This document shows positions 32,425-57,515 of a DNA stretch of 64,000 bases, piece by piece. The DNA is from Nocardioides marmorisolisilvae (GTDB lineage: Bacteria > Actinomycetota > Actinomycetes > Propionibacteriales > Nocardioidaceae). How positions within the stretch are numbered: the first letter of the stretch is position 1; the number at the start of each line of letters is the position of its first letter. The position numbers and the translations under genes were made by a program. Where the stretch lies: contig NZ_RJSG01000002.1 in NCBI RefSeq assembly GCF_003725775.1, positions 2,252,941 through 2,316,940 of the forward strand. The letters are read 5' to 3'. The notes beneath the pieces are model-generated. The model was not told where the DNA came from. It saw only the letters and a program-made list of their open reading frames with translations, and made no database searches.

Positions 32425-32557
32425 GGGTTTCGACAAGCTCAACCAGCACAGGCGGGGTTTCGACAGGCTCAATCGGCACGGCCAGGGTTTCGACAGGCTC
32501 AACCAGCACAGCCGGGTTTCGACAGGCTCAACCAACGAGACCCAGTGGCTCAACCTG
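32425..32557. repeat. Tandem array of the GTTTCGACAGGCTCAACC repeat (4-5 units)
   Basis: Four units of about 29-30 bases begin at about 32425, 32455, 32485 and 32513, each with core GGGTTTCGACAGGCTCAACC plus CAGCAC-type spacer. A partial unit (GGCTCAACC) ends at 32557 and contains the tetR stop. The reverse strand reads GGTTGAGCCTGTCGAAAC. The period is too regular for coding but spacers are degenerate, so it is not a CRISPR array. Confidence 0.85.
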
Positions 32558-33155
32558 CAACGGCGAGGAGCAGCTCGCAAGCCCGGCGCAGGTCCTGCTC
32601 GGCCGACTCCAGCGGGCGGTTGCCCGAGAGCGTGGTGACCAGCACACCGAACCAGCACTGGATCACCAGCCAGCAGCGACGCCGCTGGTCCTCGGTGGGG
32701 TCCCGGTGCCAGCCGGCGACCCGGAGCAGCAGCGCCAGGAAGGCCTCCTCGATGACGGCCGAGTCCGGGCTGTCGAGACCCTCGGACAGGATGATCGACT
32801 GGATCATCGACATCGAGAGCCGCCGGTTGGCGTACATCTCCTTGGTGAAGAGCATGAGCAGGTCAGTGACCACGGCACCGAGGTCCTGGTCCGCGTCGAC
32901 CTGGAGGTCGCGCGGGTCGACCTTCTCCAGCTCGGCCCGCATCACCCCGACGAACAGGTGCACCTTGGACGGGAAGTACCGGTAGAGCGTCGCGATCGCG
33001 ACCTCCGACTCGGCGGCCACGTCCTGCATCTGCACGCGCTCGAAGTCCTGCTGCGACCCCAGCTTCACCGCCGCGCGCAGCATCTGGCTGTGCCGGTCCT
33101 TCTGCCCCTGCGAGCTGGGCTTGGCCGGCGGCCTCGCTTCGGGGAGCCGCGGCAC
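32550..33155 (-). CDS. TetR-family regulator
   Basis: The 201-residue product has the TetR helix-turn-helix (QDVAAESEVAIATLYRYFPS, with YFPSK at the recognition helix) and an all-helical ligand domain. GTG 33155 follows the UPF0182 stop by one base, so it is coexpressed with that membrane protein. Its stop codon, TGA 32552-32550, lies inside a GGTTGAG repeat unit. The ligand is unknown. It may regulate its own operon or the membrane genes upstream. Confidence 0.87.
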   Translation of the reverse strand: MPRLPEARPPAKPSSQGQKDRHSQMLRAAVKLGSQQDFERVQMQDVAAESEVAIATLYRYFPSKVHLFVGVMRAELEKVDPRDLQVDADQDLGAVVTDLLMLFTKEMYANRRLSMSMIQSIILSEGLDSPDSAVIEEAFLALLLRVAGWHRDPTEDQRRRCWLVIQCWFGVLVTTLSGNRPLESAEQDLRRACELLLAVAG

Positions 33156-33156
33156 G

Positions 33157-36096
33157 TCAGTTCTTCTTCGTGGTCTTCGGCTTCGGCTCCGCGGCGAGTG
33201 CCTGGTCGACCAGCGTCCTGGCCTCGGCCACCCGCTGCGCGTAGGCGGCCAGGTCGCCCTTCTTCAGCGCGGCGTCGGCTTCCTTGAACTTGGCGTCCGC
33301 CTGGGTGAGCAGGTCGAAGGTCGTCGTCCCCGGAGTCTCGCCGTTGTCCGGCGGGGTCGTGGTCGGACCCTCGTCGGTGCCCACGGTGTCGCCGGTGGAC
33401 TGGCCGATGTTCCGGATCGCGTCGCTCAGCGTGGTGCCGATGCCGACGTCCTTGCCGTAGGAGGCGAGCACCCGCAGCAGCACCGGGTACTTGCCGGACC
33501 CGGTCTCGCGCACCGTGTAGAGCGGCTGCACGTAGAGCAGTCCGCCGTCGACCGGGAGCGTGAGCAGGTTTCCGTAGCGGACGCTGGCATCCGTGCCGGT
33601 CTTGAAGTTCCGCAGCACCGCCGCGACCTTCGGGTCGGTGCTGAACTGGTTGGCGATGTTGCCCGGCCCCTGGAACTGGGTGTTGTCGGGCAGCCGCAGG
33701 ATCTGGAACTTGCCGTAGGTCGAGGTGTCCGCGGCATCCGCACCCACCGACATGAACGCCGTCAGGTTGGACTTGTTGGCCGGGCTGTAGACCGAGGTCA
33801 GCGAGTAGACCGGGTCACCACCGGGCTCGCGCTCGACCGAGAGCCGGTACGGCGGCTGGGTGGTCGCGGTCTGGTCGGGATCGGCCGGAACCTCCCAGCG
33901 GTCGGTGGCCTCGTAGAACGTCTTCGGGTTGGTGACGTGGTACTCGGCGAGGATGTTCCGCTGCACCTTGTACATGTCCTCGGGGTAGCGGAAGTGGTCG
34001 AGCAGCTCCTTGGGGATGCTCTGGCGCGACTTCACGACGTCCGGGAACACCGACTCCCAGGCCTTCAGGATCGGGTCGGTGTCGTCCCACTCGTAGAGCG
34101 TCACCGTGCCGTCGTAGGCGTCCACGGTCGCCTTGACCGCGTTGCGCATGTAGTTGATGTCGTCGGTCGGCTGCGTCGCGTACGTCGGTCGCGGGCTGAT
34201 CGCGTCCGAGGTCATGTCGCGCAGCGAACGCTTCTGGGAGTTCGCGAACTTGTCGGTGGTCGTGTAGCCGTCGAGGATCCAGACGATCCGGCCGTTCACG
34301 ACCGCCGGCAGCGAAGTCTTGTCGACGGTCAGCCACGGGGCGACCTTCTGGACACGGACCCGCGGCGAGCGGTTGTAGAGCAGCTTCGAGTCTGCGTGCA
34401 CGCGCGAGGACAGCAGGAAGTTGGGCTCGCCGAACTTCACGGCGTACAGGAGCTTGCGGAACTCCGAGCCGACCTTGACGCCGTCCTTGCCCTCGTACGT
34501 CGAGGTCTGCGCGGTACCCACCGAGGTGTTGTTCTGCGGGATGTCGAGCTCGACGTCCTTGCCGCCCTTGGCCTTGCCGACGATCGAGTACGACGGGCTG
34601 TTGTCGCCGAAGTAGATCTGCCCGCGGTAGCCACCGTTGGTGAGCGAGGTGAGCACGCCGCTCGGCGGGAGCGACTGCTCGGCGAAGACCGGCTGGCCAC
34701 CGTTCGTGGTGGTCGCGACCTCCTTGTTCTGCTCGTCGCGTTGGTTGCCGTAGGCGGCGATCATCCCGTAGCCGTGGGTGTAGACCGTGTGCAGGTTCGC
34801 CCACTTCTTCTGTGCCGCCGGCAGGCCGTCGACGTTGATCTCGCGGGCGGCCACGACCATGTCCCGGCTGGTGCCGTCGACCTTGTAGTGGTCGACGTCG
34901 AGCACCGGCTGCACCGTGTAGTACGCCTTCTGCTGCTGCAGCTGCTCGAAGGCGTCGCGGACCTCGCCCGGGTCGAGCAGCCGGACGCCGGGGATCGACT
35001 TCGAGTTGACGACGTCCGAGGCCTTGAGCGTGGTCTTGGCGTCGTACGGCGTGATCTGGGTGTCGGTCAGCCCGTAGGCGTCGCGGGTCGCGGTGATGTT
35101 CTTCGCGATGTACGACGACTCCTTGTCCGGCTCGTCGGGCTTGACCTGGAACTTCTGCACCATCGCCGGCCAGATCATGCCGATGAGCACGGCCGAGAGC
35201 GCGAACAGTGCCAGGCCCACGCCGGGCAGCATCCAGGTGCGCCGGTAGACGTTGACGAAGAAGAGGATCGCGCAGATCACCGCGATCGCGATGAGGATGT
35301 TCTTGCTCGGCAGCACCGCGTGCTGTCTCGAGTAGGTCATGCCGGTGACCAGTCCCCCGCCCGCGGAGGTCAGGTCGAACCGGTCCAGGTAGTAGTCGAC
35401 CGCCTTGAGCAGCACCAGCAGGCCGAGGACCACCGAGATCTGGGCTTGCGCCGGCCCGGAGACCTTGTCGACGCGCGCCTGCAGCCGGATCCCGCCGTAC
35501 ACGTAGTGCACGAAGACGGCCGCGACCAGGCCGATCACGAACGCGGTCATGAAGAAGTCGACGAGCCAGTGCAGCCACGGCAGCGTGAAGACGTAGAAGC
35601 CGATGTCCTTGTGGAAGTAGGCGTCCTTCTGCCCGAAGGACTGCCGGTGCTGCCACAGCAGGTAGGTGCGCCACTGACCGGTCGCCGAGGCGCCGGCGAA
35701 GACCGCGAAGACGATGCTGGCCGAGATCAGCAGGATCCGGCGCAGCGGGTTGATCACCTCGCGGTAGCGGTCCAGGTTCGCCTGCTCGGCGGAGTTCGGG
35801 CGGAACACCGGGCGCAGCCGGTAGGCCAGCCAGAGGTTGCCGCCGACGATCAGGCCCATCAGCAGGCCGAAGACCACGAACATGCCGACCTTGGTCCAGA
35901 TCAGCGTGCTGAACACGTGGCCGTAGCCGATCGAGGAGTACCAGAGCTTGTCGGTCCAGATGCCCGCGAACAGCGAGAAGCCGATCAGCAGCGCGGCCAT
36001 CACGACCAGGGTGAGGATCAGCGGGCTGCGGCGGCGCTCGTGACGCACCGGGGCCGGACGGGGCTGTTCCGGCTCGTCGCCGAAGAAGTCACTCAT
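33157..36096 (-). CDS. UPF0182 family membrane protein
   Basis: The 979-residue protein matches UPF0182 (COG1615), typical of actinobacteria. The N-terminal half has about seven TM helices (SPLILTLVVMAALLIGFSLF first); the large C-terminal part is extracytoplasmic (KVAPWLTVDKTSLPAVVNGR, TDDINYMRNAVKATVDAYDG), ending with an acidic linker and Lys-rich tail KPKTTKKN. ATG 36096 has AGGAGA upstream. The function is unknown. It is flanked by the PPA1309-like gene, with which its start overlaps by 8 bases, and tetR. Confidence 0.9.
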   Translation of the reverse strand: MSDFFGDEPEQPRPAPVRHERRRSPLILTLVVMAALLIGFSLFAGIWTDKLWYSSIGYGHVFSTLIWTKVGMFVVFGLLMGLIVGGNLWLAYRLRPVFRPNSAEQANLDRYREVINPLRRILLISASIVFAVFAGASATGQWRTYLLWQHRQSFGQKDAYFHKDIGFYVFTLPWLHWLVDFFMTAFVIGLVAAVFVHYVYGGIRLQARVDKVSGPAQAQISVVLGLLVLLKAVDYYLDRFDLTSAGGGLVTGMTYSRQHAVLPSKNILIAIAVICAILFFVNVYRRTWMLPGVGLALFALSAVLIGMIWPAMVQKFQVKPDEPDKESSYIAKNITATRDAYGLTDTQITPYDAKTTLKASDVVNSKSIPGVRLLDPGEVRDAFEQLQQQKAYYTVQPVLDVDHYKVDGTSRDMVVAAREINVDGLPAAQKKWANLHTVYTHGYGMIAAYGNQRDEQNKEVATTTNGGQPVFAEQSLPPSGVLTSLTNGGYRGQIYFGDNSPSYSIVGKAKGGKDVELDIPQNNTSVGTAQTSTYEGKDGVKVGSEFRKLLYAVKFGEPNFLLSSRVHADSKLLYNRSPRVRVQKVAPWLTVDKTSLPAVVNGRIVWILDGYTTTDKFANSQKRSLRDMTSDAISPRPTYATQPTDDINYMRNAVKATVDAYDGTVTLYEWDDTDPILKAWESVFPDVVKSRQSIPKELLDHFRYPEDMYKVQRNILAEYHVTNPKTFYEATDRWEVPADPDQTATTQPPYRLSVEREPGGDPVYSLTSVYSPANKSNLTAFMSVGADAADTSTYGKFQILRLPDNTQFQGPGNIANQFSTDPKVAAVLRNFKTGTDASVRYGNLLTLPVDGGLLYVQPLYTVRETGSGKYPVLLRVLASYGKDVGIGTTLSDAIRNIGQSTGDTVGTDEGPTTTPPDNGETPGTTTFDLLTQADAKFKEADAALKKGDLAAYAQRVAEARTLVDQALAAEPKPKTTKKN

Positions 36097-36619
36097 CGCG
36101 GGCTGTCTCCTCGTACTCAAGCGTGGCGTGCAACTGCTCCAACAAACCGGGGACCAGGTCCGGCCCGGTCAGAACGAGGTCGTCCGCGTCATGCGACCTT
36201 AACCTCAGCGCGCAAGCGGCCTCACCCCCGCGCAGGACCGCGGCGACCATCCGGACCTCCTGGCGCTCGGGGTGCTGCGCGGCGTACTCCTGGGCCGCGG
36301 CGACGTCGGCCGGCAGCTCGTCGTCGGCACCGGGAGGCAGTACCAGCCGCTCCGCGACCGCGGCGACGCCGGCGACGTCCTCGGGCCACTCGATCCCGGC
36401 GAGCACGTCCTCGAGCAGCTGCCCCGGGGCCAACGGCTCCTGCTCGATCGGGGTCAGGCCGTCGTCGTCCGCGTCCAGGCCGAGCGCCTCGGCCAGTCCG
36501 GGCTCCTGGGCGACCAGCTGCGCGGTGGTGACGAGCGCGTAGATCCGTTCCGGCTGGTCCCAGCCGAGCTCGCTGGCATGGGCCTCGAGCTCGCGGACCA
36601 CCGACGCGAGCGCACTCAC
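36089..36619 (-). CDS. PPA1309-like conserved protein
   Basis: GTG 36619 overlaps the PDZ-protease stop by 4 bases (GTGA); a GTG three codons earlier is possible. The 176-residue soluble protein is Glu/Leu/Ala-rich (ELEAHASELGWDQPERIYAL first, RLVLPPGADDELPADVAAAQ later). It matches the PPA1309 family of actinobacteria, from memory, which commonly sits between a PDZ/Lon-like protease and a UPF0182 gene as here. The role is unknown. The end overlaps the UPF0182 start. Confidence 0.72.
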   Translation of the reverse strand: MSALASVVRELEAHASELGWDQPERIYALVTTAQLVAQEPGLAEALGLDADDDGLTPIEQEPLAPGQLLEDVLAGIEWPEDVAGVAAVAERLVLPPGADDELPADVAAAQEYAAQHPERQEVRMVAAVLRGGEAACALRLRSHDADDLVLTGPDLVPGLLEQLHATLEYEETARDE

Positions 36620-37674
36620 CCGGTGCACCTGGGCAGCGCGGCGTTCGGGTTCTCCCGCCAGGCGTTCACGGCCTTGATGGCGTCGGAGAGCGTGTGCACC
36701 TTCACCAGGCGCAGCTTGTTCTTGTCGTAGTGCGAGCGCACCGCCTCGGCGCAGTTCTCCTGGGCGACCAGGAACAACCGCGCGCCGTCGCGCTGGGCGC
36801 CGACCAGCTTCTGGCCGATGCCGCCGATCGGGCTGACCACGCCGTCGGCGCTGATCTCACCGCTGCCGGCGATCGACTGCCCGCCGGTCAGGGAACCGGG
36901 CGTGAGCAGGTCGTAGATGGAGAGCGCGAAGATCATGCCCGCCGACGGCCCGCCGATGTTGTCGGACAGCCGCACGTTGACCTTGAACGGGTAGACGAAC
37001 TTCTGGGCGATGCTCACCCCGACCCGGGAGGCCTTCTTGTCGTCCGCCGCCGGGACCGTCACCACGGTGACCACCTTCTCCGCGGTCCCCCGGCGGATGC
37101 CGAGCTCGACCTTGTGGCCCGGAGTCACCGCGCGGATCGCCGCGACGAGCTTCGAGGCGTTCGCGGTGCGCAGGCCGTCCACCGAGGTGAGCACGTCACC
37201 CTTCTTGAGGATGCCGGCCGACGGACCCTTCGGGTCGACCCCGCTGACCGAGACGTCGACGCGGTAGGCGATCTTCAACGCGCTGAGCGCCGCGGCGGTC
37301 GCGTTGTCCTGCGAGGAGGTCATCTCCACCGCGGACTGCTGCTGGACCTGCTTGCTGGTCTGGGTCGGCTTGTAGACCGCGTCCTTCGGAAGTACCGCGA
37401 CGTCCGGGTCGGCCCACGCCAGCATCACCTGGATCAGGCTGAGGTTGTCGGTCGGTCCGTCCGGGATGATCGTGACCATCCGCAGGCCGCCGGTGTCGGT
37501 GTAGGTCTTGTGCCCGGTGATCTGGATGATCGGCTTGTTGTCGAACTTGCCCAGCACGTTGATCGTCGGACCCGGCTGGAAGCGGACGTAGGGCACCTTC
37601 ACCAGGGCAGCGCCGATCGTCAGCGCGACCACCAGGCCGAACGCGAGCAGGCCTGCGATCGTGCGGCGACTCAT
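36616..37674 (-). CDS. PDZ and Lon-like protease (YlbL family)
   Basis: The 352-residue protein has an N-terminal TM helix (TIAGLLAFGLVVALTIGAAL), a PDZ domain (about 135-205: GPSAGILKKGDVLTSVDG) and an S16 Lon-type domain (about 215-340) with the catalytic Ser in NIGGPSAGMIFALSIYD and Lys in GIGQKLVGAQRD. It would cleave membrane or secreted substrates outside the membrane. It heads the operon with PPA1309-like, UPF0182 and tetR, a common actinobacterial grouping. Confidence 0.87.
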   Translation of the reverse strand: MSRRTIAGLLAFGLVVALTIGAALVKVPYVRFQPGPTINVLGKFDNKPIIQITGHKTYTDTGGLRMVTIIPDGPTDNLSLIQVMLAWADPDVAVLPKDAVYKPTQTSKQVQQQSAVEMTSSQDNATAAALSALKIAYRVDVSVSGVDPKGPSAGILKKGDVLTSVDGLRTANASKLVAAIRAVTPGHKVELGIRRGTAEKVVTVVTVPAADDKKASRVGVSIAQKFVYPFKVNVRLSDNIGGPSAGMIFALSIYDLLTPGSLTGGQSIAGSGEISADGVVSPIGGIGQKLVGAQRDGARLFLVAQENCAEAVRSHYDKNKLRLVKVHTLSDAIKAVNAWRENPNAALPRCTG

Positions 37675-37700
37675 GGGAGCAGCCTGTCAGATTCCGACAA

Positions 37701-37943
37701 CTACGCGGACCGACGGGTCGGATCGCTGCTGGTGCGGCGTACCGCGACGCCGGTGCTGCGCTCGCGCGGCCGCGGTCGGTTGCGCGCCGCGGGCGGCAAC
37801 GGACGCAGGATCGCCTCCGCGAACCGGTCCTGCTCGGCCTGCGTGCGCTCGCGCTCCGGGCGCTCGCGACCGACCCAGGCGGCCCAGACCATGGCAAGCC
37901 CGGTCACCAGGGCGGCGGGCAGCAGCCAGAGCAGGATCTCCAC
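37701..37943 (-). CDS. Small membrane protein
   Basis: GTG 37943 starts an 80-residue protein with one TM helix (EILLWLLPAALVTGLAMVWA) and a long basic Arg/Pro-rich tail (RPLPPAARNRPRPRERSTGV). A strong ribosome site is not seen. It lies between the PDZ protease gene (27 bases downstream) and the repeat region before cheB. It could also be a fragment. The function is unknown. Confidence 0.45.
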   Translation of the reverse strand: MEILLWLLPAALVTGLAMVWAAWVGRERPERERTQAEQDRFAEAILRPLPPAARNRPRPRERSTGVAVRRTSSDPTRRSA

Positions 37944-37993
37944 CGCTCAAGCATGAACGAGAGAGCCTCCCGTCCTCGGCTGTGACACGCGCC

Positions 37994-38075
37994 GGGTTTC
38001 GACAGGCTCAACCAGCACGGGCCGCTCAACCAGCACCGGCCGGTCGACCAGCACCGGTCGGTCAACCAGCAAGGT
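37994..38075. repeat. Repeat unit plus degenerate 18-bp tandem copies at the cheB stop
   Basis: A full GGGTTTCGACAGGCTCAACC unit (37994-38022 including spacer) is followed by three roughly 18-base copies with the pattern CGGTC(A/G)ACCAGCACCGG. The cheB stop codon (TGA 38064-38062 on the minus strand) is part of the last copy. Confidence 0.75.
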
Positions 38076-39114
38076 AGGCAGTGAGCTTGCCGGCGATGTC
38101 GTCCAGGGCCAGCACCTCGTGGGCGAGGCCAGCGGTGGCGACGGCACCGGGCATGCCCCAGACCACGGACGTCGGCTCGTCCTGGACGACGATGCGGGCG
38201 CCGGCCTCGGCGAGCAGCCGGCAGCCGATCAGGCCGTCGGACCCCATGCCGGTGAGGATCAGGGCGGTGGCGGCTCCGCCGTACGCCTCCACCGCGGAGC
38301 GGAACAGCGCGTCGACCGCCGGCCGGCAGAAGTTCTCCTGCGGGCCCTCGTCCAGGTGCGCCCGTACGACGCCCGCGGACCGCTTCACCCGCAGGTGGAA
38401 CCCGCCGGGCGCGACGAGCACCTCGCCGGCCCGGGGCACGTCGCCCTCGGCGGCCTCGCGGACGGTGAGCGGCGAGACCCGGTCGAGCCGCTCGGCGAAC
38501 ATCGTGGTGAACAGGGGCGGCATGTGCTGGACCACCAGCACCGGGACGGGCAGGGTGCCGGGCAGGCCCTCGAGCACCCGGGACAGCGCGTCGGGTCCCC
38601 CGGTGGAGCAGCCGATCAGGAGCACCTCGGGCGGCGTGCTGCTCGGCTCGGCGAGCTTGACCGGTGCCGGCGGTGGTGCGGGCTTCTCCCGGCCCGGGCC
38701 GACGATGCGGCGAGCGCCGACCAGCGCCTTGACCTTGGGGATCAGCTGCTCGCGGACGCTGGCCATCGACTCGGCCATCGAGGTGGTGTTCGACGGCTTG
38801 GTGACGAAGTCCGAGGCTCCCAGCGAGAGCGCCTCCAGGGTCTTGGTCGCCCCCTTCTCGGTCAGCGTGCTGAACATGATGATCGGCAGGTGCGGGTGCC
38901 GCTTGCGGATCTCGTCCAGAGCGCCGAGCCCGTCGAGGATCGGCATCTCGATGTCGAGGGTGACGGCGTCCGGCTCGAGCTCCTCGACCAGTCCGATCGC
39001 CTCGCGGCCGTTGGTCGCGACCCCGGCGACCTCGATCTCTGTGTCGAGCGTGAGAGAGGTGGTGACGAGGCGGCGCACCAGCGCGGAGTCGTCGACGACC
39101 AGGACCCGGATCAC
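38062..39114 (-). CDS. cheB: Chemotaxis protein methylesterase CheB
   Basis: The 350-residue protein has a receiver domain (Asp8, Asp9 and phospho-acceptor Asp54) and a C-terminal methylesterase domain with catalytic Ser170 (IGCSTGGPDAL), His197 (VQHMPP) and Asp293 (TGMGSDG). It removes methyl groups from chemoreceptors after phosphorylation by CheA. It is divergent from cheR and preceded by its own FliA-like promoter. Its stop lies in a dispersed repeat (TAC CTT GCT GGT TGA), so the last two to three residues (LAG) are probably repeat-derived. Confidence 0.93.
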   Translation of the reverse strand: MIRVLVVDDSALVRRLVTTSLTLDTEIEVAGVATNGREAIGLVEELEPDAVTLDIEMPILDGLGALDEIRKRHPHLPIIMFSTLTEKGATKTLEALSLGASDFVTKPSNTTSMAESMASVREQLIPKVKALVGARRIVGPGREKPAPPPAPVKLAEPSSTPPEVLLIGCSTGGPDALSRVLEGLPGTLPVPVLVVQHMPPLFTTMFAERLDRVSPLTVREAAEGDVPRAGEVLVAPGGFHLRVKRSAGVVRAHLDEGPQENFCRPAVDALFRSAVEAYGGAATALILTGMGSDGLIGCRLLAEAGARIVVQDEPTSVVWGMPGAVATAGLAHEVLALDDIAGKLTAYLAG

Positions 39115-39123
39115 CCCGAACTC

Positions 39124-39149
39124 ATCGGCAGGATCTCCCGACGCCTGAG
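39124..39149 (-). promoter_or_regulatory. FliA-like promoter of cheB
   Basis: On the minus strand: CTCA (39149-39146), 16 bases, GCCGAT (39129-39124). The start codon begins 10 bases beyond the hexamer, so the mRNA would have at most a few leader bases. Confidence 0.7.
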
Positions 39150-39185
39150 CCGTCCGGGACGTTCGACCCTCGGGGCGCCATTCCT

Positions 39186-39211
39186 CTCAAGAACGATCGG
39201 CCGGGACCGAT
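39186..39211 (+). promoter_or_regulatory. FliA-like promoter of the cheR operon
   Basis: CTCA (39186-39189), 16 bases, ACCGAT (39206-39211). The cheR GTG begins at 39221, ten bases beyond the hexamer, so a nearly leaderless mRNA is expected. Confidence 0.65.
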
Positions 39212-39220
39212 GAGTGCGCC

Positions 39221-40093: not shown

Positions 40094-40096
40094 CCC

Positions 40097-48151: not shown

Positions 48152-49071
48152 TGAGCGTTTCCGACGTCACCGCACGGATCGCACAGATCCAGGCACAGCT
48201 CGCCGTCCTCGCACCGCAGAGCACCGGCTCGGCGGCGGCCTTCGCGAGCAGCCTTGACGCGGCCAGCGGCAGCACCGTCGCGACCACCGGCGACGACGTG
48301 GTGAGCGAGGCCAAGAAGTACCTCGGGGTCCCCTACGTCTGGGGAGGCACCGACCCGAAGAGCGGCCTGGACTGCTCGGGCCTGGTCCAGCTCGTCTACA
48401 AGAACCTCGGCTACGACCTCCCCCGCGTCTCCGGCGACCAGGCGAAGGCCGGCACCGAGGTCACCGGCGGCCTGGCCGCGGCGAAGCCGGGCGACGTGCT
48501 CGCCTTCGGCTCCCCGGTCCACCACGTCGGCATCTACATCGGCGACGGCCAGATGATCGAGGCGCCGCACCCCGGCGCCGACGTGCGGATCAGCAAGGTC
48601 ACCGAGACCCCGACCCACATCCGCCGGATCCTGCCCACCGACGCGGCCGCCGCCGGAGCCGGCGCGGTCACCACGGGCCGGGTCGCCACCGCGACCCCGT
48701 ACGCCGACCTGTTCACCGCCGCGGCTCGCAAGTACGGCGTCCCGGCCTCGCTGCTCTCGGCGGTGGCGCGGACCGAGTCGAGCTACAACGCGAACGCGGT
48801 CAGCCCGGCCGGCGCGCAGGGCCTGATGCAGCTGATGCCCGGGACCGCGAAGAGCCTGGGCGTGACGAACTCCTTCGACCCCGCCCAGTCGATCGACGGC
48901 GCCGCGAAGCTGCTGCACAGCCTGACCCAGCGGTTCGGCCGCACCGACCTGGCGCTCGCGGCGTACAACGCCGGCCCGGGCGCGGTCCTGAAGTACCACG
49001 GCGTCCCGCCGTACCCCGAGACCCAGCAGTACGTCACCAAGGTGATGTCCCTGATGAAGGCGGCCGCCTGA
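48151..49071 (+). CDS. NlpC/P60 plus lytic-transglycosylase cell-wall hydrolase
   Basis: The 306-residue protein fuses an NlpC/P60 peptidase domain (about 48-160: Cys75 in GLDCSGLVQLVYK and His125 in VHHVGIYIGDG) to a soluble lytic transglycosylase domain (about 185-305: Glu209 in ARTESSYN, SPAGAQGLMQLMPGTAKS, AYNAGPGAV). No Sec signal is present. It begins at the fliJ stop and ends at the fliK start, so it is probably exported by the flagellar system and acts as the FlgJ equivalent, opening peptidoglycan for the rod. The peptidase plus glycosidase pair in one protein is unusual. Confidence 0.85.
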   Translation: MSVSDVTARIAQIQAQLAVLAPQSTGSAAAFASSLDAASGSTVATTGDDVVSEAKKYLGVPYVWGGTDPKSGLDCSGLVQLVYKNLGYDLPRVSGDQAKAGTEVTGGLAAAKPGDVLAFGSPVHHVGIYIGDGQMIEAPHPGADVRISKVTETPTHIRRILPTDAAAAGAGAVTTGRVATATPYADLFTAAARKYGVPASLLSAVARTESSYNANAVSPAGAQGLMQLMPGTAKSLGVTNSFDPAQSIDGAAKLLHSLTQRFGRTDLALAAYNAGPGAVLKYHGVPPYPETQQYVTKVMSLMKAAA

Positions 49072-50570
49072 TGACGATCGCCCCCCTGACTCCCGCCGCG
49101 GCGCCGGTCCCCACACCTGGCGTCGCGGCGGGCTCCAAGGCTCCCGGGGACTTCCTGGCGGAGTTCCTGCAGGCCCTCACCGCCACCGATGGCTCGGTGG
49201 TCGAGCCTGTCGAAACCCCGACCCCCGGGCCCACCGCGCTGGTTGTGCCTGTCGAAACCCCCGCCCCTGGGCTGGTTGAGCCTGCCAAATCCCCCGCCCC
49301 TGGGCTGGTTGAGCCTGTCGAAACCCCCGGCACCACCCCGCCGGCCGCTCGTGGGTCGAAGCACGATCGCGCCGTCGACACCAGGACCCTGCCCGCGACC
49401 GATCCCGGGACGCCCGCCGACCCGTGCCCGACCGCGGACGCGACGACCCCGACTCCCGACCCGACGGCCGCGACGCCGACGCCGCCGACGCAGCCGACGC
49501 CCGACCCGACCCTGAACCCCGTCGTGACCAACCCGGTCGTGAACAACCCGGCCGCCCCGCCCGTCGCACCCGCGCCCACCGGGGCCGGCGTCGGCGCTGG
49601 TGACACCCCGATCACCCCGTCCGACAAGGTCAACCCGGGCAAGCACCTCGGCCAGAACCGCACCGAGCACCCCGGCCTGCACCTGGGCCTGGGCCACACC
49701 ACGCACCCGGTGAACCCGAAGCGCGGAACCGACACCGGTTCAGCCGGCACCGGCGAACAGCCGCCGACGGCCACCACCCCCGAGGACCCGACCACCCCGG
49801 TGGCCACCAAGTCCCCCGAGGCTCCCGCGGCTCCCCGGTTCGAGCTGCCGCAACCGGCCCAGCACGCGCGGGTCGAGCAGCCGGTCACCCAGGTCGCGCC
49901 CACGACGGTGCAGCCGACCAGCGCGATGACAACGACGACCACGACGGCCCCGACGCCGGCCGTCACGACCACCGTCTCGGTCCCCGACCAGGTCTTCGAC
50001 CGGATCACCGGGCTGACGAGCGCCGGCAACGGCACCCACCGGATCACCATGAAGCTCCAGCCCGAGGCGCTTGGCGAGGTGCGCGTGGTGCTGACCGTGC
50101 GCGACGGCGCGGTGCACGTCCGGCTCGCCGCGGGCCAGGAGGCCCGCGCCGCGCTGCTCGAGGGATCGCCCGAGCTCAAGCAGCTGCTCGAGCGGGCCGG
50201 CGCGACCGACGCGAAGGTCGTGGTTCGCGAGCTGCCGACCAGTGCGGTGGCCGCCGTCCAGCAGCCGAACGGTGCCGCCCAGGCCCAGACCAGCGCCCAG
50301 CACGGCCACCAGAACGCGCAGGGCGACCAGCCCCCGCAGGCGGGACAGTCCGCCACCCAGACCCCAGCGACCGACACCACGAGCACGGACTACCCCGGGC
50401 TCGGCGGTGGAGACCGGTCACCCGATCGTCACGCAGGGACGCGTGCCGACCACCTCGCCACGGACGGCGATGACCACTCCCGAGGACACCGCGAAGGCGG
50501 GCGTCGGGACGTCACACCGATCCGGTCGGGAACGAGGTCCGCAGCAGCGGGTCTCGACCTGACCCTGTGA
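49071..50570 (+). CDS. fliK: Flagellar hook-length control protein FliK
   Basis: The 499-residue protein has a conserved N-terminal part (DFLAEFLQALTATDGS), a long Pro/Thr-rich linker (about 40-310) and the FliK C-terminal domain (about 320-400: ITMKLQPEALGEVRVVLTVR, LKQLLERAGATDAKVVVREL). It measures hook length and switches export specificity through FlhB. Residues 43-87 carry four in-frame VEPVETP-type units from a dispersed DNA repeat. The long tail after 400 is low-complexity. It overlaps the hydrolase stop by one base. Confidence 0.88.
   Translation: MTIAPLTPAAAPVPTPGVAAGSKAPGDFLAEFLQALTATDGSVVEPVETPTPGPTALVVPVETPAPGLVEPAKSPAPGLVEPVETPGTTPPAARGSKHDRAVDTRTLPATDPGTPADPCPTADATTPTPDPTAATPTPPTQPTPDPTLNPVVTNPVVNNPAAPPVAPAPTGAGVGAGDTPITPSDKVNPGKHLGQNRTEHPGLHLGLGHTTHPVNPKRGTDTGSAGTGEQPPTATTPEDPTTPVATKSPEAPAAPRFELPQPAQHARVEQPVTQVAPTTVQPTSAMTTTTTTAPTPAVTTTVSVPDQVFDRITGLTSAGNGTHRITMKLQPEALGEVRVVLTVRDGAVHVRLAAGQEARAALLEGSPELKQLLERAGATDAKVVVRELPTSAVAAVQQPNGAAQAQTSAQHGHQNAQGDQPPQAGQSATQTPATDTTSTDYPGLGGGDRSPDRHAGTRADHLATDGDDHSRGHREGGRRDVTPIRSGTRSAAAGLDLTL
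49197..49331. repeat. Four in-frame copies of the dispersed repeat inside fliK
   Basis: Units with core GGTTGAGCCTGTCGAAACCC (some degenerate) lie at a period of about 36-45 bases, translated as VVEPVETP, VVPVETP, VEPAKSP and VEPVETPG. The phase is identical in all four, so the repeat is tolerated as linker sequence and not frame-breaking. Confidence 0.85.
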
Positions 50571-51048: not shown

Positions 51049-51058
51049 GGACACCACC

Positions 51059-51913: not shown

Positions 51914-51918
51914 TGAAC

Positions 51919-51960
51919 CGAGGGTCTGAGCGTGCCGTCCGCGGCGCGCTCAGACCCTCG
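51919..51960. terminator. Perfect 14-bp bidirectional terminator
   Basis: CGAGGGTCTGAGCG (51919-51932) and CGCTCAGACCCTCG (51947-51960) pair perfectly around a 14-base loop, between flgE (+) and a convergent secreted-protein gene (-). It ends the flgB operon. Confidence 0.8.
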
Positions 51961-51966
51961 TCACTC

Positions 51967-52470
51967 TCAGCCGATCCGGACCGGCTTCCAGCTGTAGTTG
52001 AACGCGAAGCCCTGCGGGAAGTTGTCCTCGTTCCCGGTGTGGTCGAACAGGCAGAACTGCACGTAGGCCTTGCCCGGGTGCAGCTCGCCGAACTCCGGCT
52101 TCAGCAGGTAGCGGGTCACGTGCCAGTGCCCGTCGCAGGGCACGGTCAGGCCGGCCTCTGAGTTCTGGAAGTTCCAGTTGGTGTCGTACCAGGCATCGGC
52201 ATCCGAGCTGCTGGTGTGGTCGGGCTCGCTCAGGTTCGGCCCCTGCTTGACCGAGACCCACAGGTGGGTGCCGGTGCGGCCGCCGTAGCACTTGTACTTG
52301 CCCTGCACGTACGCCGCACTGCCGTCCGGCGCCAGGATGATGTTGTGCCCGGTCCAGGCGACCTGCGGGTCGGCGTACGGGACGGGCTTGGCGATACCCG
52401 GCGAGCCGAGCAGCACCATCGCGAGTGCGGCAGCGACGGCGGCGCAGGCCTTGGCGGTCGAAGCGAACAT
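51967..52470 (-). CDS. Secreted hypothetical protein
   Basis: The start is ATG 52470 with AGGGGA upstream; a longer frame to 52536 adds residues before the signal. The 167-residue product has a signal peptide (AVAAALAMVLLGSPGIAKPV) and a mature part with Trp/Tyr/Cys-rich beta pattern (YKCYGGRTGTHLWVSVKQGP; VPCDGHWHVTRYLLKPEF). Cys residues may form disulfides outside the cell. It is convergent with the flgB operon and has no evident link to motility. Confidence 0.7.
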   Translation of the reverse strand: MFASTAKACAAVAAALAMVLLGSPGIAKPVPYADPQVAWTGHNIILAPDGSAAYVQGKYKCYGGRTGTHLWVSVKQGPNLSEPDHTSSSDADAWYDTNWNFQNSEAGLTVPCDGHWHVTRYLLKPEFGELHPGKAYVQFCLFDHTGNEDNFPQGFAFNYSWKPVRIG

Positions 52471-52662
52471 GGTTCCCCTTTCACGGCTCCCCTCCTTTCC
52501 ACCGTGCACCCGGCCCCAGAAGCCCGGCAATAGCACCGACGGGGGGCGTTACCTGCGTCACGTCGCCCGCGTACGGGCCAGAAAAGAGTGAACCGAACGG
52601 GCCATCTGCGGCGTACACAGAAGTACCGAGGCAACGACGCCTCCCCCACGAGGAGGTCCGCG

Positions 52663-53163
52663 ATGGACCAGATCCGGCTACGACCGCTGGAGCCCGACGA
52701 CGGCGCCCTGCTCCAGGAGATCTTCGACCAGCTCGGCCCGAACTCCCGCTACCAGCGGTTCCTGGTGCCGAAGCTCCGGCTGACGTCCTACGAGCTCCGC
52801 GTGCTCACCGCGGTCGACCACGACCAGCACGAGGCCGTGGTCGCGCTCGCGCTCCCCGAGGAGCGGCCGATCGGCGTGGCCCGCTTCGTGCGCGGGGCCG
52901 CGGACCCGGACGTGGCCGAGGTGGCCGTCGAGGTGGTGGACTCCTGGCACCGCCGCGGCATCGGCAGCCTGCTGATCCGGGCCCTGGTCGCCCGGGCGGT
53001 CGACCTGCACGTCGAGCAGCTCGCCGCCGTGATGGCCCACGACAACCTCGCCGCGCTGCGGCTGCTGCACCACGTCCCCGGCGAGCTCGGGCGGGTCCCG
53101 GGCAACCAGGGGGTCGCGGAGTACCGGCTGGTGCTCCGGCCGGATCTTCGGCCGGCCTGCTGA
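52663..53163 (+). CDS. GNAT-family acetyltransferase
   Basis: ATG 52663 with AGGAGG at 52651-52656 was chosen over upstream starts. The 166-residue product has the GNAT fold: RYQRFLVPKLRLTSYELRVL, AEVAVEVVDSWHRRGIGSLL (acetyl-CoA loop pattern RxxGIG) and AVMAHDNLAALRLLH. It would acetylate a small molecule or protein; the substrate is unknown. It lies between the flagellar operons but its start has no FliA-like promoter. Confidence 0.82.
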   Translation: MDQIRLRPLEPDDGALLQEIFDQLGPNSRYQRFLVPKLRLTSYELRVLTAVDHDQHEAVVALALPEERPIGVARFVRGAADPDVAEVAVEVVDSWHRRGIGSLLIRALVARAVDLHVEQLAAVMAHDNLAALRLLHHVPGELGRVPGNQGVAEYRLVLRPDLRPAC

Positions 53164-53183
53164 GCACCGGTACGGCCCAAGTC

Positions 53184-53209
53184 CTCAAGTACGCCGGGGC
53201 GGGGCCGAT
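53184..53209 (+). promoter_or_regulatory. FliA-like promoter of the flbD-motA operon
   Basis: CTCA (53184-53187), 16 bases, GCCGAT (53204-53209). The next start, ATG 53269, is 60 bases beyond, giving a leader of about 50 bases with an AAGGAAGG ribosome site. Confidence 0.7.
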
Positions 53210-53268
53210 GGACACACACGAAGGGCCACGGACGGCCCGGGTTCCATCGCACAAGGAAGGTGCGCCCC

Positions 53269-53556
53269 ATGATCACGCTCACGCGACTCTCGGGATCGGC
53301 GTTCGTCCTGAACTCCGATCTGATCGAGCGCATCGACGCGACCCCCGACTCGGTGGTCACCCTCATCGACGGCAAGAAGTACGTCGTGGCGGAGACCCTC
53401 GAGGAGATCATCGACCTGGTCCGCACCTACCGCGGCGAGGTCATCGCTGTCGGCGCCCACATCGCCGACCAACCCGTCCCCGACTCGTCCGCACCCGTCC
53501 CCGGCCCTGATCGCCCGCTCGCGGCGGTCCACTCGCTCGGGCACGGGGAGGGCTGA
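53269..53556 (+). CDS. flbD: FlbD/SwrD-like flagellar protein
   Basis: The start is ATG 53269; a GTG nine bases earlier is weaker. The 95-residue protein has the FlbD/SwrD core in the first 70 residues (LTRLSGSAFVLNSDLIERID, then VTLIDGKKYVVAETLEEIID), followed by a Pro-rich tail. In Bacillus, SwrD (YlzI) increases swarming torque and is needed for proper stator use. It is two bases from motA, so it is coexpressed with the stator. Confidence 0.8.
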   Translation: MITLTRLSGSAFVLNSDLIERIDATPDSVVTLIDGKKYVVAETLEEIIDLVRTYRGEVIAVGAHIADQPVPDSSAPVPGPDRPLAAVHSLGHGEG

Positions 53557-53557
53557 G

Positions 53558-54328
53558 ATGGATCCGGCACCCGCGATCGGTATCGGAGGAGGGTTCGTCG
53601 TCGTCATCGCCGCCAACGTGATGGAGGGCGGCAACCCGATGAGCCTCCTGCTCGGCCCACCGCTGATCCTCGTCTTCGGCACGACGATCCTGATCAGCAT
53701 CGCCGGCGGCACCATGATCGACGCCAAGAACATCATCAGCTCGCTGAAGATGGCCTTCACCGGCAAGGTCGACCCGCCGGGCGCGATGATCCCCGAGGTC
53801 GTCGGACTGGCCGAGCGCGCCCGCCGCGAGGGCCTGCTCTCGCTGGAGGAGTCGCTGACCGCGATCGACGACCCGTTCCTGGTCAAGGGCGTCACCATGG
53901 CGATCGACGGGACCGACCCCGAGGAGGTCCGCGACATCCTCGAGGCGGAGGTCTACGCCAAGCGCGCCGAGGACAAGCAGCGCGCCAAGTTCTTCGCCGA
54001 CGCCGGCGCCTACGCCCCCACCATCGGCATCATCGGCACCGTCATGGGCCTGGTGCACGTGCTGGAGAACCTGGCCGCCCCCGAGGAGCTCGGCCACCTG
54101 ATCGCCGGCGCGTTCGTCGCCACCCTGTGGGGCGTCACCTCGGCCAACGTCATCTGGCTCCCGATCGGCAGCCGGATCAAGCGCCTCGGCGAGCTCGAGT
54201 GCGCCCGGATGGAGCTGGCGATCGAGGGAGTCGCCGCGATCCAGGCCGGCTCGAACCCGCGTGTCATCGCCCAGAAGCTGCGCTCGCTGCTGCCCTCGGG
54301 CCAGCAGCCCGAGGCGGAGGCTGCCTGA
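53558..54328 (+). CDS. motA: Flagellar motor stator protein MotA
   Basis: The 256-residue protein has four predicted TM helices (two N-terminal, two near 150-205) and MotA motifs: FFADAGAYAPTIGIIGTVMG, VATLWGVTSANVIWLPIG and a cytoplasmic loop with MAIDGTDPEEVRDILEAEVY. Together with MotB it forms the ion channel that drives rotation through FliG. ATG 53558 lies two bases after flbD. The stop overlaps motB by one base (TGATG). Confidence 0.95.
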   Translation: MDPAPAIGIGGGFVVVIAANVMEGGNPMSLLLGPPLILVFGTTILISIAGGTMIDAKNIISSLKMAFTGKVDPPGAMIPEVVGLAERARREGLLSLEESLTAIDDPFLVKGVTMAIDGTDPEEVRDILEAEVYAKRAEDKQRAKFFADAGAYAPTIGIIGTVMGLVHVLENLAAPEELGHLIAGAFVATLWGVTSANVIWLPIGSRIKRLGELECARMELAIEGVAAIQAGSNPRVIAQKLRSLLPSGQQPEAEAA

Positions 54329-55242
54329 TGTCGCGCCGCAAACGTCACGAGCAGCACGAGGAGCACGAGAACCACGAGCGCTGGTTGGTCACCTACGCCG
54401 ACATGGTCACGCTGCTGATGGTGCTGTTCATCGTGATGTTCGCGATGAGCCAGGTCGACCAGAAGAAGTTCAACGCGCTCAAGGAGGGCCTGGCCGCCGG
54501 GTTCGGCCAGTCCACCTCGATCCAGGACGGCTCCAGCTCGATCCTCGACCAGCCCGGCGAGGCGGCTGCGGAGCCGATCGCGCCGAGCAAGTTCGCGGTC
54601 GACGTCAAGCAGGTCCAGGCAGCCACCACCTCCGCGACCTCCAAGGCGATCGCCGAGCACGACCAGGCCCAGGCGGACCTCAAGTACAGCGAGGCGAAGG
54701 CGGAGGTGGACCGCCTCAAGGAGCTGCTCAAGCGGCTGCACGCCGCGCTGGCCGCGCACGGTCTCGAGGACGACGTCCAGGCCACGATCGACAACCGCGG
54801 CCTGGTGCTGAGCATGGTCTCGCGGCACGTCGTCTTCGAGCCGAACCTGGCCACGCTCACCGACCGGGGTCGGCTGCTGGTCGACACCCTCGCGCCCGTG
54901 CTGCGCGACCTGCCCGACCCGCTCGAGATCGACGGCCACACCAACCAGGCGAAGGGCAAGCCGGAGTTCTACGCCTCCGACTGGGACCTGTCCGCGGCCC
55001 GGGCGGTCACCGTGCTGCGCCACCTGAACGAGGTCGACCACGTGCCGGCAGGTCGCCTGACCGCGTCGGCCTTCGGGCACACCAAGCCCCTGGTCGACCC
55101 GAGCAAGCCCGGCTCGCAGGAGGTCAACAAGCGCGTGGACATCGTCGTGCTGTCCTCACTGCCCAGCGACACCCGCGCCCTCATCGAGGACGTGCTGAAG
55201 AAGACCCCGAAGGGACCCGGAGCTCAAGGAGGGCTCTCATGA
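54328..55242 (+). CDS. motB: Flagellar motor stator protein MotB
   Basis: The 304-residue protein has a single N-terminal TM helix with the proton-binding Asp25 in WLVTYADMVTLLMVLFIVMF, a helical linker and a C-terminal OmpA-like peptidoglycan-binding domain (about 170-285: EIDGHTNQAKGKPEFYASDW, NKRVDIVVLSSLP). It anchors the stator to the wall. The Tyr-Ala-Asp context suggests proton rather than sodium coupling, as inference. Confidence 0.95.
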   Translation: MSRRKRHEQHEEHENHERWLVTYADMVTLLMVLFIVMFAMSQVDQKKFNALKEGLAAGFGQSTSIQDGSSSILDQPGEAAAEPIAPSKFAVDVKQVQAATTSATSKAIAEHDQAQADLKYSEAKAEVDRLKELLKRLHAALAAHGLEDDVQATIDNRGLVLSMVSRHVVFEPNLATLTDRGRLLVDTLAPVLRDLPDPLEIDGHTNQAKGKPEFYASDWDLSAARAVTVLRHLNEVDHVPAGRLTASAFGHTKPLVDPSKPGSQEVNKRVDIVVLSSLPSDTRALIEDVLKKTPKGPGAQGGLS

Positions 55243-55709
55243 CCGTGACTGCGATGCCGACTGCGCCCGAGGCGACCGAGGACAAGTCCAAGAAGAAGGC
55301 CGGCAAGGACGGCGAGAAGGCCAAGGGCGGCAAGAAGAAGCTGATCATGATGATCGTCGGGGCCCTGGTGCTCGGGGGCGGCGGGTACGTCATGTTCCTC
55401 AAGCCCAAGGGACCTCCCGGCCCGCCCGTCGCCGGTGACGTGGTGAAGCTCGACGCGATCCAGATCAACCTGGCCGACGACCACTACCTGCGGATCGCGA
55501 TCGGTCTGCAGCTGGTCAAGGGGGTCAAGGAGACCGACACCAGCAAGGCCGCGGACGCCACCATCGGGGTGTTCTCCGGGCTGCCGATGTCGGAGGTGAA
55601 CGACCCGAAGCACCGCGAGCTGCTCCGCAAGGAGCTGGTCAAGGAGCTGAAGGAGCGCTACGAGGGAGAAGTGATGGGGGTGTACTTCACGGAGCTCGTC
55701 ACCCAGTAA
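55239..55709 (+). CDS. fliL: Flagellar basal-body-associated protein FliL
   Basis: The 156-residue protein has a Lys-rich cytoplasmic N-terminus (KSKKKAGKDGEKAKGGKKK), one TM helix (LIMMIVGALVLGGGGYVMFL) and the extracytoplasmic FliL domain (INLADDHYLRIAIGLQLVKG, RKELVKELKERYEGEVMGVY). FliL stabilises or strengthens the stator. ATG 55239 overlaps motB by four bases. A FliA-like promoter for fliM starts 26 bases after its stop. Confidence 0.93.
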   Translation: MTVTAMPTAPEATEDKSKKKAGKDGEKAKGGKKKLIMMIVGALVLGGGGYVMFLKPKGPPGPPVAGDVVKLDAIQINLADDHYLRIAIGLQLVKGVKETDTSKAADATIGVFSGLPMSEVNDPKHRELLRKELVKELKERYEGEVMGVYFTELVTQ

Positions 55710-55734
55710 CTGGTACAGACCACCAGGTTTTCCG

Positions 55735-55760
55735 CTCAGGTGGGTCCGGCGCGAGCCGAT
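55735..55760 (+). promoter_or_regulatory. FliA-like promoter of the fliM operon
   Basis: CTCA (55735-55738), 16 bases, GCCGAT (55755-55760). The fliM GTG is 11 bases beyond, so the mRNA would be nearly leaderless. It is the best match of the five sites. Confidence 0.75.
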
Positions 55761-55770
55761 ACGACCCAGC

Positions 55771-56709
55771 GTGAGCCTCCTTGCGTCCAACCGGGCGTCC
55801 ACCCGCACTCGTCGCCGGACCGGCGCCGAGCCGGTCCTGTACGACTTCCGCCGGCCGATCCAGCTCTCCCGGGAGCACTCCCGGATCCTCCAGCTCGGCT
55901 TCGACGGTTTCGCGCGCCAGGCCACCACCGTGTTCACGTCCTCGCTGCGCACCGTGTGCCAGGTGGCGATCGCCTCCATCGAGCAGCGCAGCTACGCCGA
56001 GTACGTCGACTCGCTGGACGCTGCGACCTACCTGACGATGTTCGCCGCCGACCCGATGCCGGGTCTCGGCGTGCTGGAGATCCCGCTGACCGCGACGATG
56101 TCCTGCGTCGACCACATGCTCGGTGGGCCCGGCAACGCCGACCAGCCGCAGCGACCGCTGACCGAGATCGAGAGCGGCGTCATCGGGGGCCTGATCGAGC
56201 GGCTGCTGGGCGAGATGCGCTACTCCCTGGCCGGCATCGTGCCGCTGGAGCCGGCCATCACCGGCACCGAGTACAGCCCCCAGTTCGCCCAGGTCGCCGG
56301 TGCGGCCGACGTGATGGTCGTGGCTTCCTTCGACCTCCGCGTCGACGAGCACCCCTACCGGATGACGATCTGCCTGCCGTTCAGCGGCCTGCTCCCGCAC
56401 CTGGCCTCTGCTGCCGCCCCGGCGCCCGCTTCGGACCGCGAGCGCGCCAAGCGCGCCCAGGCCGCGGAGCTGCTGCAGGCGCAGTTCTCCGAGGTCCCGC
56501 TCGAGGTCTCGGTGCGCTTCCGCCCGACCCACCTGAATCCGGACGAGCTGTCGGCGCTGGTGCCCGGCGACGTGCTGCGCCTGTCCCACCCCGCTTCCGC
56601 CCCGCTCGACGTCTGCGTCGAGCGGGAGACCTTCGCCCACGCCACCGCCGGCGCCCAGGGCCAGCGACTCGCCGCCCTGATCGTGGGCACCCGTAAGGAG
56701 ATCCGATGA
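55771..56709 (+). CDS. fliM: Flagellar motor switch protein FliM
   Basis: The 312-residue protein has the FliM core ([60 protein letters not shown]) and a C-terminal SpoA/FliN-like domain (about 235-305). The usual N-terminal CheY-binding peptide (pattern EIDALL) is absent: the product begins [20 protein letters not shown] and goes straight into the core. GTG 55771 has no visible ribosome site and starts just after the promoter. It forms the rotor switch with FliG and FliN. Confidence 0.92.
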
Positions 56710-57515
56710 CCGACCTCGCGCTCGCCGCCGCCAACGCCGCCGCCGCCGTCCTCCCGTCCGTCGAGCCGTTGATCGCCGCCGGCGCCCAGCCGGGCAACGA
56801 GAACGTGACTGCCTCCTTCTCCGGCGCCGCGATCGCCGAGGTCGACGGCGGGCTGTCCGGGCGGATCGCCGTCCTGGTCGGCGACGAGCTGACCGAGGCG
56901 CTGGCCTCCAGCCCGATCGAGGGCCTGGACCTCGCCGCCGCCGTCCAGCCCGCGCTGGACGCCATCGCCGCGACCCTCGGAGGCTCGGCCAAGGCCGCCC
57001 GCACGGTCGAGCTCGACCTGGTCGTCTCCGACCTCGGCGACGACTTCACCGTCGTCCCGCTGATCGGCGCCGGCATCGCCGCCTCGGTGCTGATCCAGGA
57101 CCACCTGCTCGCCGACGGTGGCTCTCCCGCGGCCGAGCCCGCTCCGGCGGTCCCCCCGACTTCGTTGGTTGAGCCTGTCGAAACGTTTGGACAGGTTTCG
57201 ACGAGCTCAACCGGCACGGAAACAAGCTCGGCCCCTGCCCCGGCCAGCAACGTCACGCCGTTGCCGGTGCGCGGCCTGGAGATGCTGCACGGCGTCGACA
57301 TGGAGGTGACCGTCGAGCTCGGCCGCACCCGGATGACGGTGCGCGACCTGCTCGCCCTGACCCCCGGCGCCGTCCTCGAGCTGGACCGCGCCGCCGGCAG
57401 CCCCGCCGACCTGCTCGTCAACGGCCGTCTCATCGCCCGCGGCGAGGTCGTCGTGGTGGACGAGGACTTCGGCCTCCGGGTGACCGAGATCGTCGACGAC
57501 AGCGCGGTGGGCTGA
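56706..57515 (+). CDS. fliN: Flagellar motor switch protein FliN (FliY-like)
   Basis: The 269-residue protein has an N-terminal CheC-like domain (about 30-135: [39 protein letters not shown]), a linker (about 140-190) with repeat-derived VEPVET and a C-terminal SpoA domain (about 190-269: [20 protein letters not shown]). This is FliY layout, but no EIDALL-type N-terminal motif is present. The CheC-like half may bind or dephosphorylate CheY. It overlaps fliM by four bases. Confidence 0.88.
57167..57212. repeat. Head-to-head pair of the dispersed repeat inside fliN
   Basis: GGTTGAGCCTGTCGAAAC (57167-57184) is followed nine bases later by an inverted copy, GGTTTCGACGAGCTCAACC (57194-57212). Both are translated in frame (VEPVET, then VSTSST) in the linker between the two FliN domains. 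Confidence 0.85.

Follow-up and report, generated by a model that had tools for sequence, protein, structure and literature searches.

The region analyzed here is a 64,000-nucleotide stretch of the Nocardioides marmorisolisilvae genome (contig NZ_RJSG01000002.1, forward-strand positions 2,252,941 to 2,316,940), hereafter the window, which holds a flagellar gene cluster and several copies of a short repeated DNA element. An initial annotation had placed the 18-mer core of this repeat in an array beside tetR, at the end of cheB, and within fliK and fliN. All four places carry it, and Pfam bears out the four gene names. At up to three mismatches the 18-mer matches the window 11 times, compared with a mean of 0.05 (largest 1) over 100 shuffles. 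The array lies between tetR and tRNA-Met, and the cheB end holds one full copy together with three left-half units. Genes were called with a codon-usage caller trained on the window, which leaves start sites uncertain but yields an unbroken gene row across the flagellar cluster. The features are as follows.

32427..32444, minus strand: repeat copy with one mismatch, in the array after tetR (18-mer scan)
32457..32474, minus strand: repeat copy with one mismatch, in the array after tetR (18-mer scan)
32487..32504, minus strand: exact repeat copy in the array after tetR (18-mer scan)
32516..32533, minus strand: exact repeat copy in the array after tetR (18-mer scan)
32547..32555, minus strand: left-half unit GGTTGAGCC, holding the TGA stop of tetR (32550-32552)
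32550..33155, minus strand: TetR-family regulator (PF00440, PF17925), its stop within the left-half unit
37996..38013, minus strand: exact repeat copy downstream of cheB (18-mer scan)
38024..38031, minus strand: left-half unit GGTTGAGC at the cheB end
38042..38049, minus strand: degenerate left-half unit GGTCGACC at the cheB end
38060..38067, minus strand: degenerate left-half unit GGTTGACC, holding the TGA stop of cheB (38062-38064)
38062..39114, minus strand: cheB (PF01339, PF00072)
49071..50570, plus strand: fliK (PF02120), with four repeat copies in its N-terminal part
49199..49216, plus strand: fliK repeat copy with one mismatch, read VEPVET
49241..49258, plus strand: fliK repeat copy with one mismatch, read VVPVET
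49274..49291, plus strand: decayed fliK repeat copy with three mismatches, read VEPAKS
49307..49324, plus strand: exact fliK repeat copy, read VEPVET
56706..57515, plus strand: fliN (PF01052, residues 193-263), whose linker ahead of the C-terminal domain carries an inverted repeat pair
57167..57184, plus strand: left member of the fliN pair, exact, read VEPVET
57195..57212, minus strand: right member of the fliN pair, two mismatches, antisense read VSTSST

The stops of cheB and tetR had been described as lying in the GGTTGA of a repeat unit. Both do lie within GGTTGA, although the units concerned are partial left halves and not full 18-mers.

A search of the whole genome (3.83 Mb in six contigs; G000 below, with further G-numbers for the other genomes of the genus, 24 in all, and L-numbers for fetched loci) returns 157 matches to the 18-mer at up to two mismatches, 76 on the forward and 81 on the reverse strand, and none to a reversed-pattern control. 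Chance is therefore ruled out as the source of the copies in the window and in the genome. The initial annotation had called for such a count across genome and genus, and the genus proves patchy: at up to one mismatch G000, G001, and G008 hold 131, 102, and 128 matches, respectively, and the other 21 genomes hold 0 to 29, with G008 carrying its own repeat variant, GGTTGAGCYTGCCGAAAC.

The repeat unit consists of a 19-nucleotide imperfect hairpin, GGTTGAGCYTGTCGAAACC, preceded at its 5' foot by a lineage-specific tag of about 4-7 nucleotides. The hairpin comprises a 4-bp GGTT/AACC stem, then GA facing GA, around the fixed core GAGCYTGTCGA. The tag is about CCGTGCT in G000, where a TGCT-like foot is seen over 113 copies; it is CGGT or CGTC at most of the G017 sites listed. 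Of 17 Bacteroidota copies 12 have TGTCA, all five Betaproteobacteria copies have CGTTCG, and most of the 15 Treponema copies have CGGT, with the six Chloroflexi copies too few for a call. The core TGAGC-N-YG-YCGAA matches 221 times in 959,757 bases of fetched loci, 154 times with a GGT/ACC stem. Of the other 67 matches, 43 are fully paired at all three flanking positions; over the 67 as a whole, 84% of cells pair, compared with 40% after shuffling (maximum 49%). In a chosen set of 23 distinct rows, double-sided changes occur at all four stem pairs, in 29 cells versus 9.8, a number that none of 500 shuffles reaches. This set takes in 21 of 27 flank types plus two others, and since the six left out are mostly poorly paired, its count leans towards structure; the unselected pairing counts are those for the 221 core matches and for 245 flank types, given below. 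At the orthologous site L306, the G017 sequence is GGTTGAGCTTGTCGAAACC and that of G004 is TGTCGAGCTTGTCGAGACC, amounting to a stem change from T-A to C-G with loss of the outermost G-C. The structure appears to be kept by compensatory change, with a signal that weakens once decayed flank types are counted. Because the core is fixed while the stem covaries, the unit behaves as a recognized hairpin.

A longer hairpin type of 34-40 nucleotides, with ends GGTTTCGAGG...CCTCAACC, is dispersed in G008 (17 in the 75 kb taken, for example L079 at about 2026-2330) and present in further genus members, including the cheB end of G012 and the tetR end of G017. Its ends match those of the short unit, and its central stem differs.

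The repeat extends far beyond the genus. The exact 19-mer occurs in at least 114 stretches of the sequence collection, and the 80 matches listed include Actinobacteria, Bacteroidota, Treponema, Chloroflexi (metagenome-assembled genomes, MAGs), and Betaproteobacteria, with Nocardioides caeni and N. caldifontis among the named records. The highest counts in 49 repeat-bearing genomes are 259 in Leifsonia sp. Root4 and 199 in a Micropruina sp., then 178, 153, 134 (Treponema bryantii), 113, and 112 (Specibacter). A looser pattern matches 67 of 396 evenly drawn genomes of the phylum, mostly once or twice, and many of these matches are probably due to chance. A phage vector was rejected, the viral contig collection having an exact match in only 11 stretches.

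The genomic context of 128 of the 157 copies in G000, those within the stretches taken, was then tabulated. Sixty-eight lie inside predicted genes, 38 in sense and 30 in antisense orientation, and two readings predominate: VEPVET in 35 of the 38 sense copies and VSTGST in 25 of the 30 antisense copies. One remaining sense frame is closed by TGA, and the other permitted readings, LSLSK, FDRLN, and FRQAQ, are rare. The in-gene copies fall under 55 gene keys, five of which seem to represent a single gene split at locus ends; collapsed by hand, this leaves about 51 genes, with VEPVET in 22 of 25 sense cases counted per gene. Both readings are found again in G008 (sense 3/4, antisense 15/17), G017 (5/5 and 9/9), and other Actinobacteria (9/9 and 6/6), that is, in 17 of 18 sense and 30 of 32 antisense copies outside G000, counts that omit copies within 300 nucleotides of a locus end and loci below 60% GC. 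We infer that this frame bias reflects selection.

Within genes, 14 of the 68 copies are no more than 60 nucleotides from the called start, and 11 are equally close to the stop. Some copies near called starts may be untranslated, and a like caution is raised, for copies near gene starts, in the published account of CGTC-tagged repetitive extragenic palindromes (REPs; PMC3733652). Nineteen of 20 chosen complete repeat-bearing proteins have a Pfam family; judged by domain spans above the cut-off, the peptide lies outside the named domain in 15 (abutting it in one) and inside in four, namely an FMO-like protein, HgmA, ArsA, and a nickel insertion protein. In a Ham1/RdgB-type and an InhA-like protein the best solved-structure match starts at residues 8 and 10, directly or two residues after the peptide, and a few weaker reductase structure matches start earlier. 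Genes with an in-frame unit include those for the Ham1/RdgB-type protein, enoyl-ACP reductase, HisG, the NADH dehydrogenase 30-kDa subunit, and FliN. These in-gene peptides are short and apparently tolerated. C1:13239-14702 (L002-L006) of G000 is apparently one long gene with nine in-frame copies in a VEPVETPEPA-rich segment.

The initial annotation had proposed a dispersed repeat that alters protein ends and linkers. The 68 in-gene copies, and six others that provide the TGA stop of the upstream gene, support this proposal, and with an in-frame unit in some 51 predicted genes of one genome the repeat rewrites protein ends at scale. An origin as a coding repeat was rejected on two grounds: 60 of the 128 copies fall between genes, and those in genes occur in either orientation. 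The same annotation had held that finding the same peptide over unrelated DNA in orthologs would speak against it, and part of this is seen: the FliN linkers of G012, G016, G017, and G019 (corresponding to window 57120-57240) contain similar VETP-type peptides in diverged, GC-richer codons. These may be decayed copies adapted to host codon use, or independent linkers.

We propose that the repeat represents a population of mobile elements that are REP-like, non-autonomous, and very short, an account that we consider reasonably probable as a whole. An enzyme acting in trans would recognize the tag and the folded hairpin, most likely on single-stranded DNA, and new copies would be inserted without target duplication. 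Insertions in genes would survive mainly in the two frames that yield small polar peptides (VEPVET, VSTGST), mostly in linkers and at termini; insertions at gene 3' ends would survive best and sometimes provide the stop; and local arrays would grow afterwards on the tag side.

Three units inserted in the loops of other copies are consistent with such movement. Each consists of a tag plus 19-nucleotide hairpin placed after TGAGC in the loop, with no target duplication; two match exactly, L193 at 23 nt and L140 at 24 nt, and the third, L250, is a slightly altered unit of about 26 nt with two further bases. A fourth candidate, L223, proved to be an array. Comparison of orthologous sites points the same way. 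Of 14 G017 sites queried in G004, 12 were found and aligned, with flank identities of 78-98%: the same family is present in both genomes at L299, a stem variant at L306, and no element in G004 at L291, L297, L300, and L307, while at six sites the G004 sequence is a different hairpin or an unclear one. In the flagellar regions of eleven relatives, where site coverage is incomplete, the 18-mer was not found at up to two mismatches except as decayed copies near G019 fliK and fliN. The earlier description of the repeat as mobile or recombinogenic thus agrees with its dispersal and with filled and empty orthologous sites, and movement as such is what the presence/absence differences and the three nested copies suggest. 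The tagged hairpin with its covarying stem, the spread across phyla, and the fixed polarity of partial units (below) are features beyond that description.

Several observations weigh against our account. No mobilizing enzyme was identified in the searches described below. A single unit folds weakly in energy models, and pairing over the full set of 245 distinct 4+4 flank types, of which many are decayed, reaches only 39%, compared with 29% after shuffling (maximum 34%). There are only three nested cases, one slightly altered, and a scrambled control gave one chance match. Because the flanks differ too at 4 of the 12 aligned G017/G004 sites, these exchanges are not clean excisions or simple insertions. 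Finally, 91 of the 128 copies have no neighbor within 120 bp, and the neighbor pairs within that distance are 17 direct and only 6 inverted, unlike typical REPINs, the inverted REP doublets.

Among other explanations, ordinary REP behavior driven by a REP-associated tyrosine transposase (RAYT, a Y1 HUH transposase), with the cognate enzyme later lost or active from another strain, seems unlikely to us. A tag joined to an imperfect hairpin is the design of a RAYT substrate (PMC8266576), and because Y1 subclasses 2.6 and 3 pair with atypical, weakly structured repeats that lack GTAG (PMC6006769), a missing GTAG alone does not exclude a Y1 enzyme, which strengthens this explanation slightly. Of the 49 genomes that bear the repeat, 22 have a match to the RAYT/IS200 family PF01797, yet among the 14 whose copy number reaches 50 or more only 4 do; several of the ten high-copy genomes without a match are draft MAGs, in which absence is weak evidence. 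At E<=0.001 none of the 24 genomes of the genus, G000 among them, matches PF01797, whereas the family matches in 5 of 14 control genomes and in 4 of 58 relatives searched. Of 36 Y1 loci, only L250, from a Niastella MAG, has a copy within 150 nucleotides of the Y1 open reading frame (ORF), which starts about 40 nucleotides after a TGTCA-tagged copy; at L230 a copy follows the Y1 ORF by about 220 nucleotides. Given the closeness of these two copies, a RAYT may still play a role in Chitinophagaceae.

Other movers and carriers were also considered. A reverse transcriptase, as in a retroelement, was set aside, with no RVT_1 match in G000; RVT_1 matches in 3 of the 24 genus genomes, two of them above the cut-off and one being high-copy G008, and such an enzyme might act from elsewhere. 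A shared neighboring gene was likewise rejected, the clusters near 114 repeat loci spanning ABC transporters (12 loci), GGDEF/EAL proteins (4), and others at three or fewer. DUF222-HNH (13E12) genes were rejected as a general carrier, since DUF222 is found in all 24 genus genomes with no correlation with copy number; G006 and G007 have 16 and 20 matches, yet 0-2 repeats. In G008, loci L077-L083 belong to a multicopy DUF222-HNH family that has stretches of up to 1.5 kb with 76-91% similarity and carries repeats inside and upstream of its genes.

Spread without any transposase, through host replication or repair errors such as fork stalling, template switching, or microhomology copying, would also make one-sided arrays, and we regard it as improbable. 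The polarity of partial units speaks for it. Where a left half (tag plus GGTTGAGC) is found no more than 100 bp from a full copy, its position is upstream of, between, or downstream of full copies in 26, 2, and 0 cases in G000, in 11, 0, and 0 in G008, in 8, 7, and 0 in other Actinobacteria, and in 1, 0, and 0 elsewhere, with 18 further isolated left halves in G000. This one-sided placement implies a directional copying process. Right-half matches near full copies number none in G000 (11 are isolated), 12 in G008, nine in other Actinobacteria, and one in G017; the G008 right halves listed are mostly the end of a longer hairpin type, and reversed-letter controls gave no half unit near a full copy. 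In its favor, too, fillers recur within a single array, and neither PF01797 nor RVT_1 matches in G000. Local slippage alone could nevertheless hardly account for nested whole units, for the same core in unrelated phyla, or for dispersal over more than 100 places. A replication-strand bias on contig C4, with 30 plus and 13 minus copies before 1.05 Mb and 14 plus and 26 minus after it (p=0.002), was not used, because the breakpoint was chosen post hoc and the GC skew is weak; the switch in orientation falls roughly where this skew changes.

The copies between genes bear on whether the repeat is instead a selected signal. Intergenic copies make up 60 of the 128, compared with 7.8% non-coding sequence (92.2% coding) in control stretches of the same contig; 27 of the 60 lie in convergent gaps, which hold 10.5% of control intergenic bases, and 4 in divergent gaps, which hold 30%. 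In 46 of the 60 the upstream gene runs towards the tag, which puts GGTTGAG on its sense strand, and in 40 of these the copy lies within 60 nucleotides of its stop; copies in other Actinobacteria show this orientation in 54 of the 58 cases whose upstream gene is known. At the cheB end, G012 has a different hairpin with TGA within GGTTGA, G016 has one with a CGTC/GACG stem, and none is seen by eye in G019 or G017; at the tetR end, TGA lies within a different hairpin in G017, and none is seen by eye in G016 or G012. Because the same ends carry different hairpins or none, gene ends are used independently across species. This orientation, the scarcity in divergent gaps, and the recurrence of different hairpins at the same ends (cheB in G000, G012, and G016; tetR in G000 and G017) would suit a functional signal maintained by selection (a binding site, say, or a hairpin transcribed at the 3' end) better than a parasite, but we consider that explanation quite improbable given the very patchy copy number within one genus, the in-gene copies in either orientation, the differing sites among relatives, and the weaker orientation bias in G008 (11/20) and G017 (12/16). 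Selection probably lies behind the position bias as behind the frame bias, within the account of mobile REP-like elements that we prefer.

A broader possibility, which we put forward only tentatively, is that the repeat belongs to a third, as yet undescribed superfamily of bacterial hairpin elements, spanning at least five phyla and defined by the invariant GAGCYTGTCGA core, a covarying stem, and a lineage tag. Its members would be moved by a RAYT-independent enzyme without target duplication, also into loops of existing copies, and in Actinobacteria would feed in-frame peptides to dozens of genes per genome. How REPs might spread without a RAYT has been a standing question since CGTC-tagged REPs were described without a transposase (PMC3733652). 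It becomes testable here because the family is abundant, with a fixed core, readable units, nested copies, and named isolates, among them Leifsonia sp. Root4, Specibacter cremeus, and Treponema bryantii.

Comparison with known repeat systems places the element close to, yet apart from, each of them. With the GTAG REPs and REPINs mobilized by RAYTs it shares a tag plus imperfect hairpin, high copy number, some inverted doublets, and lineage-specific variants, as these are described in PMC3116915, PMC8266576, and PMC6006769. It differs in its tags (TGCT-like, CGGT, CGTC, TGTCA, or CGTTCG, with no GTAG or GTGG), in the lack of a PF01797 match in the genus, in the intragenic position of about half of its copies, and in the predominance of singlets over inverted doublets. 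In Rickettsia, palindromic elements (RPE) are palindromic repeats maintained in frame within protein genes. The element shares this property with them and differs in its unrelated host and in its two preferred frames, VEPVET and VSTGST. RPE-4 and RPE-6 have themselves been classed among the CGTC REPs (PMC3733652). Neither the 18-mer, the 13-mer cores, nor VEPVET peptides gave a main-text match in the literature searched, from which a control string was retrieved.

The CGTC-tagged REPs (Di Nocera et al., 2013; PMC3733652) are the most similar. The passages of that paper that describe them report intergenic and intragenic hairpins with no associated transposase gene in Proteobacteria, Chlorobi, Bacteroidetes, Spirochaetes, and Thermotogae, defined by a CGTC, TGTC, or CCTC foot tag, an 8-9 bp stem starting with A-T, and a short unpaired tail, mostly CCA. 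The present element is likewise a short tagged hairpin, intergenic and intragenic, found in several phyla including Bacteroidetes and Spirochaetes, and largely without an associated transposase gene, as the single close copy among the 36 Y1 loci illustrates. Its tags agree only in part, with CGTC in some G017 copies (CGGT in others) and TGTC(A) in most Bacteroidota copies, next to the TGCT-like tag of G000. The classic CGTC consensus probably also shares GAGC-N4-CGAA with the core found here. On the other side stand the few head-to-head dimers (5 pairs) and the presence in Actinobacteria and Chloroflexi, groups absent from the corresponding passages of PMC3733652. The element works like a REP; because it shares the CGTC design while its 4-bp GGTT/AACC stem departs from the definition of an 8-9 bp stem starting with A-T, we have not filed it as a CGTC-tagged REP, its nearest known counterpart.

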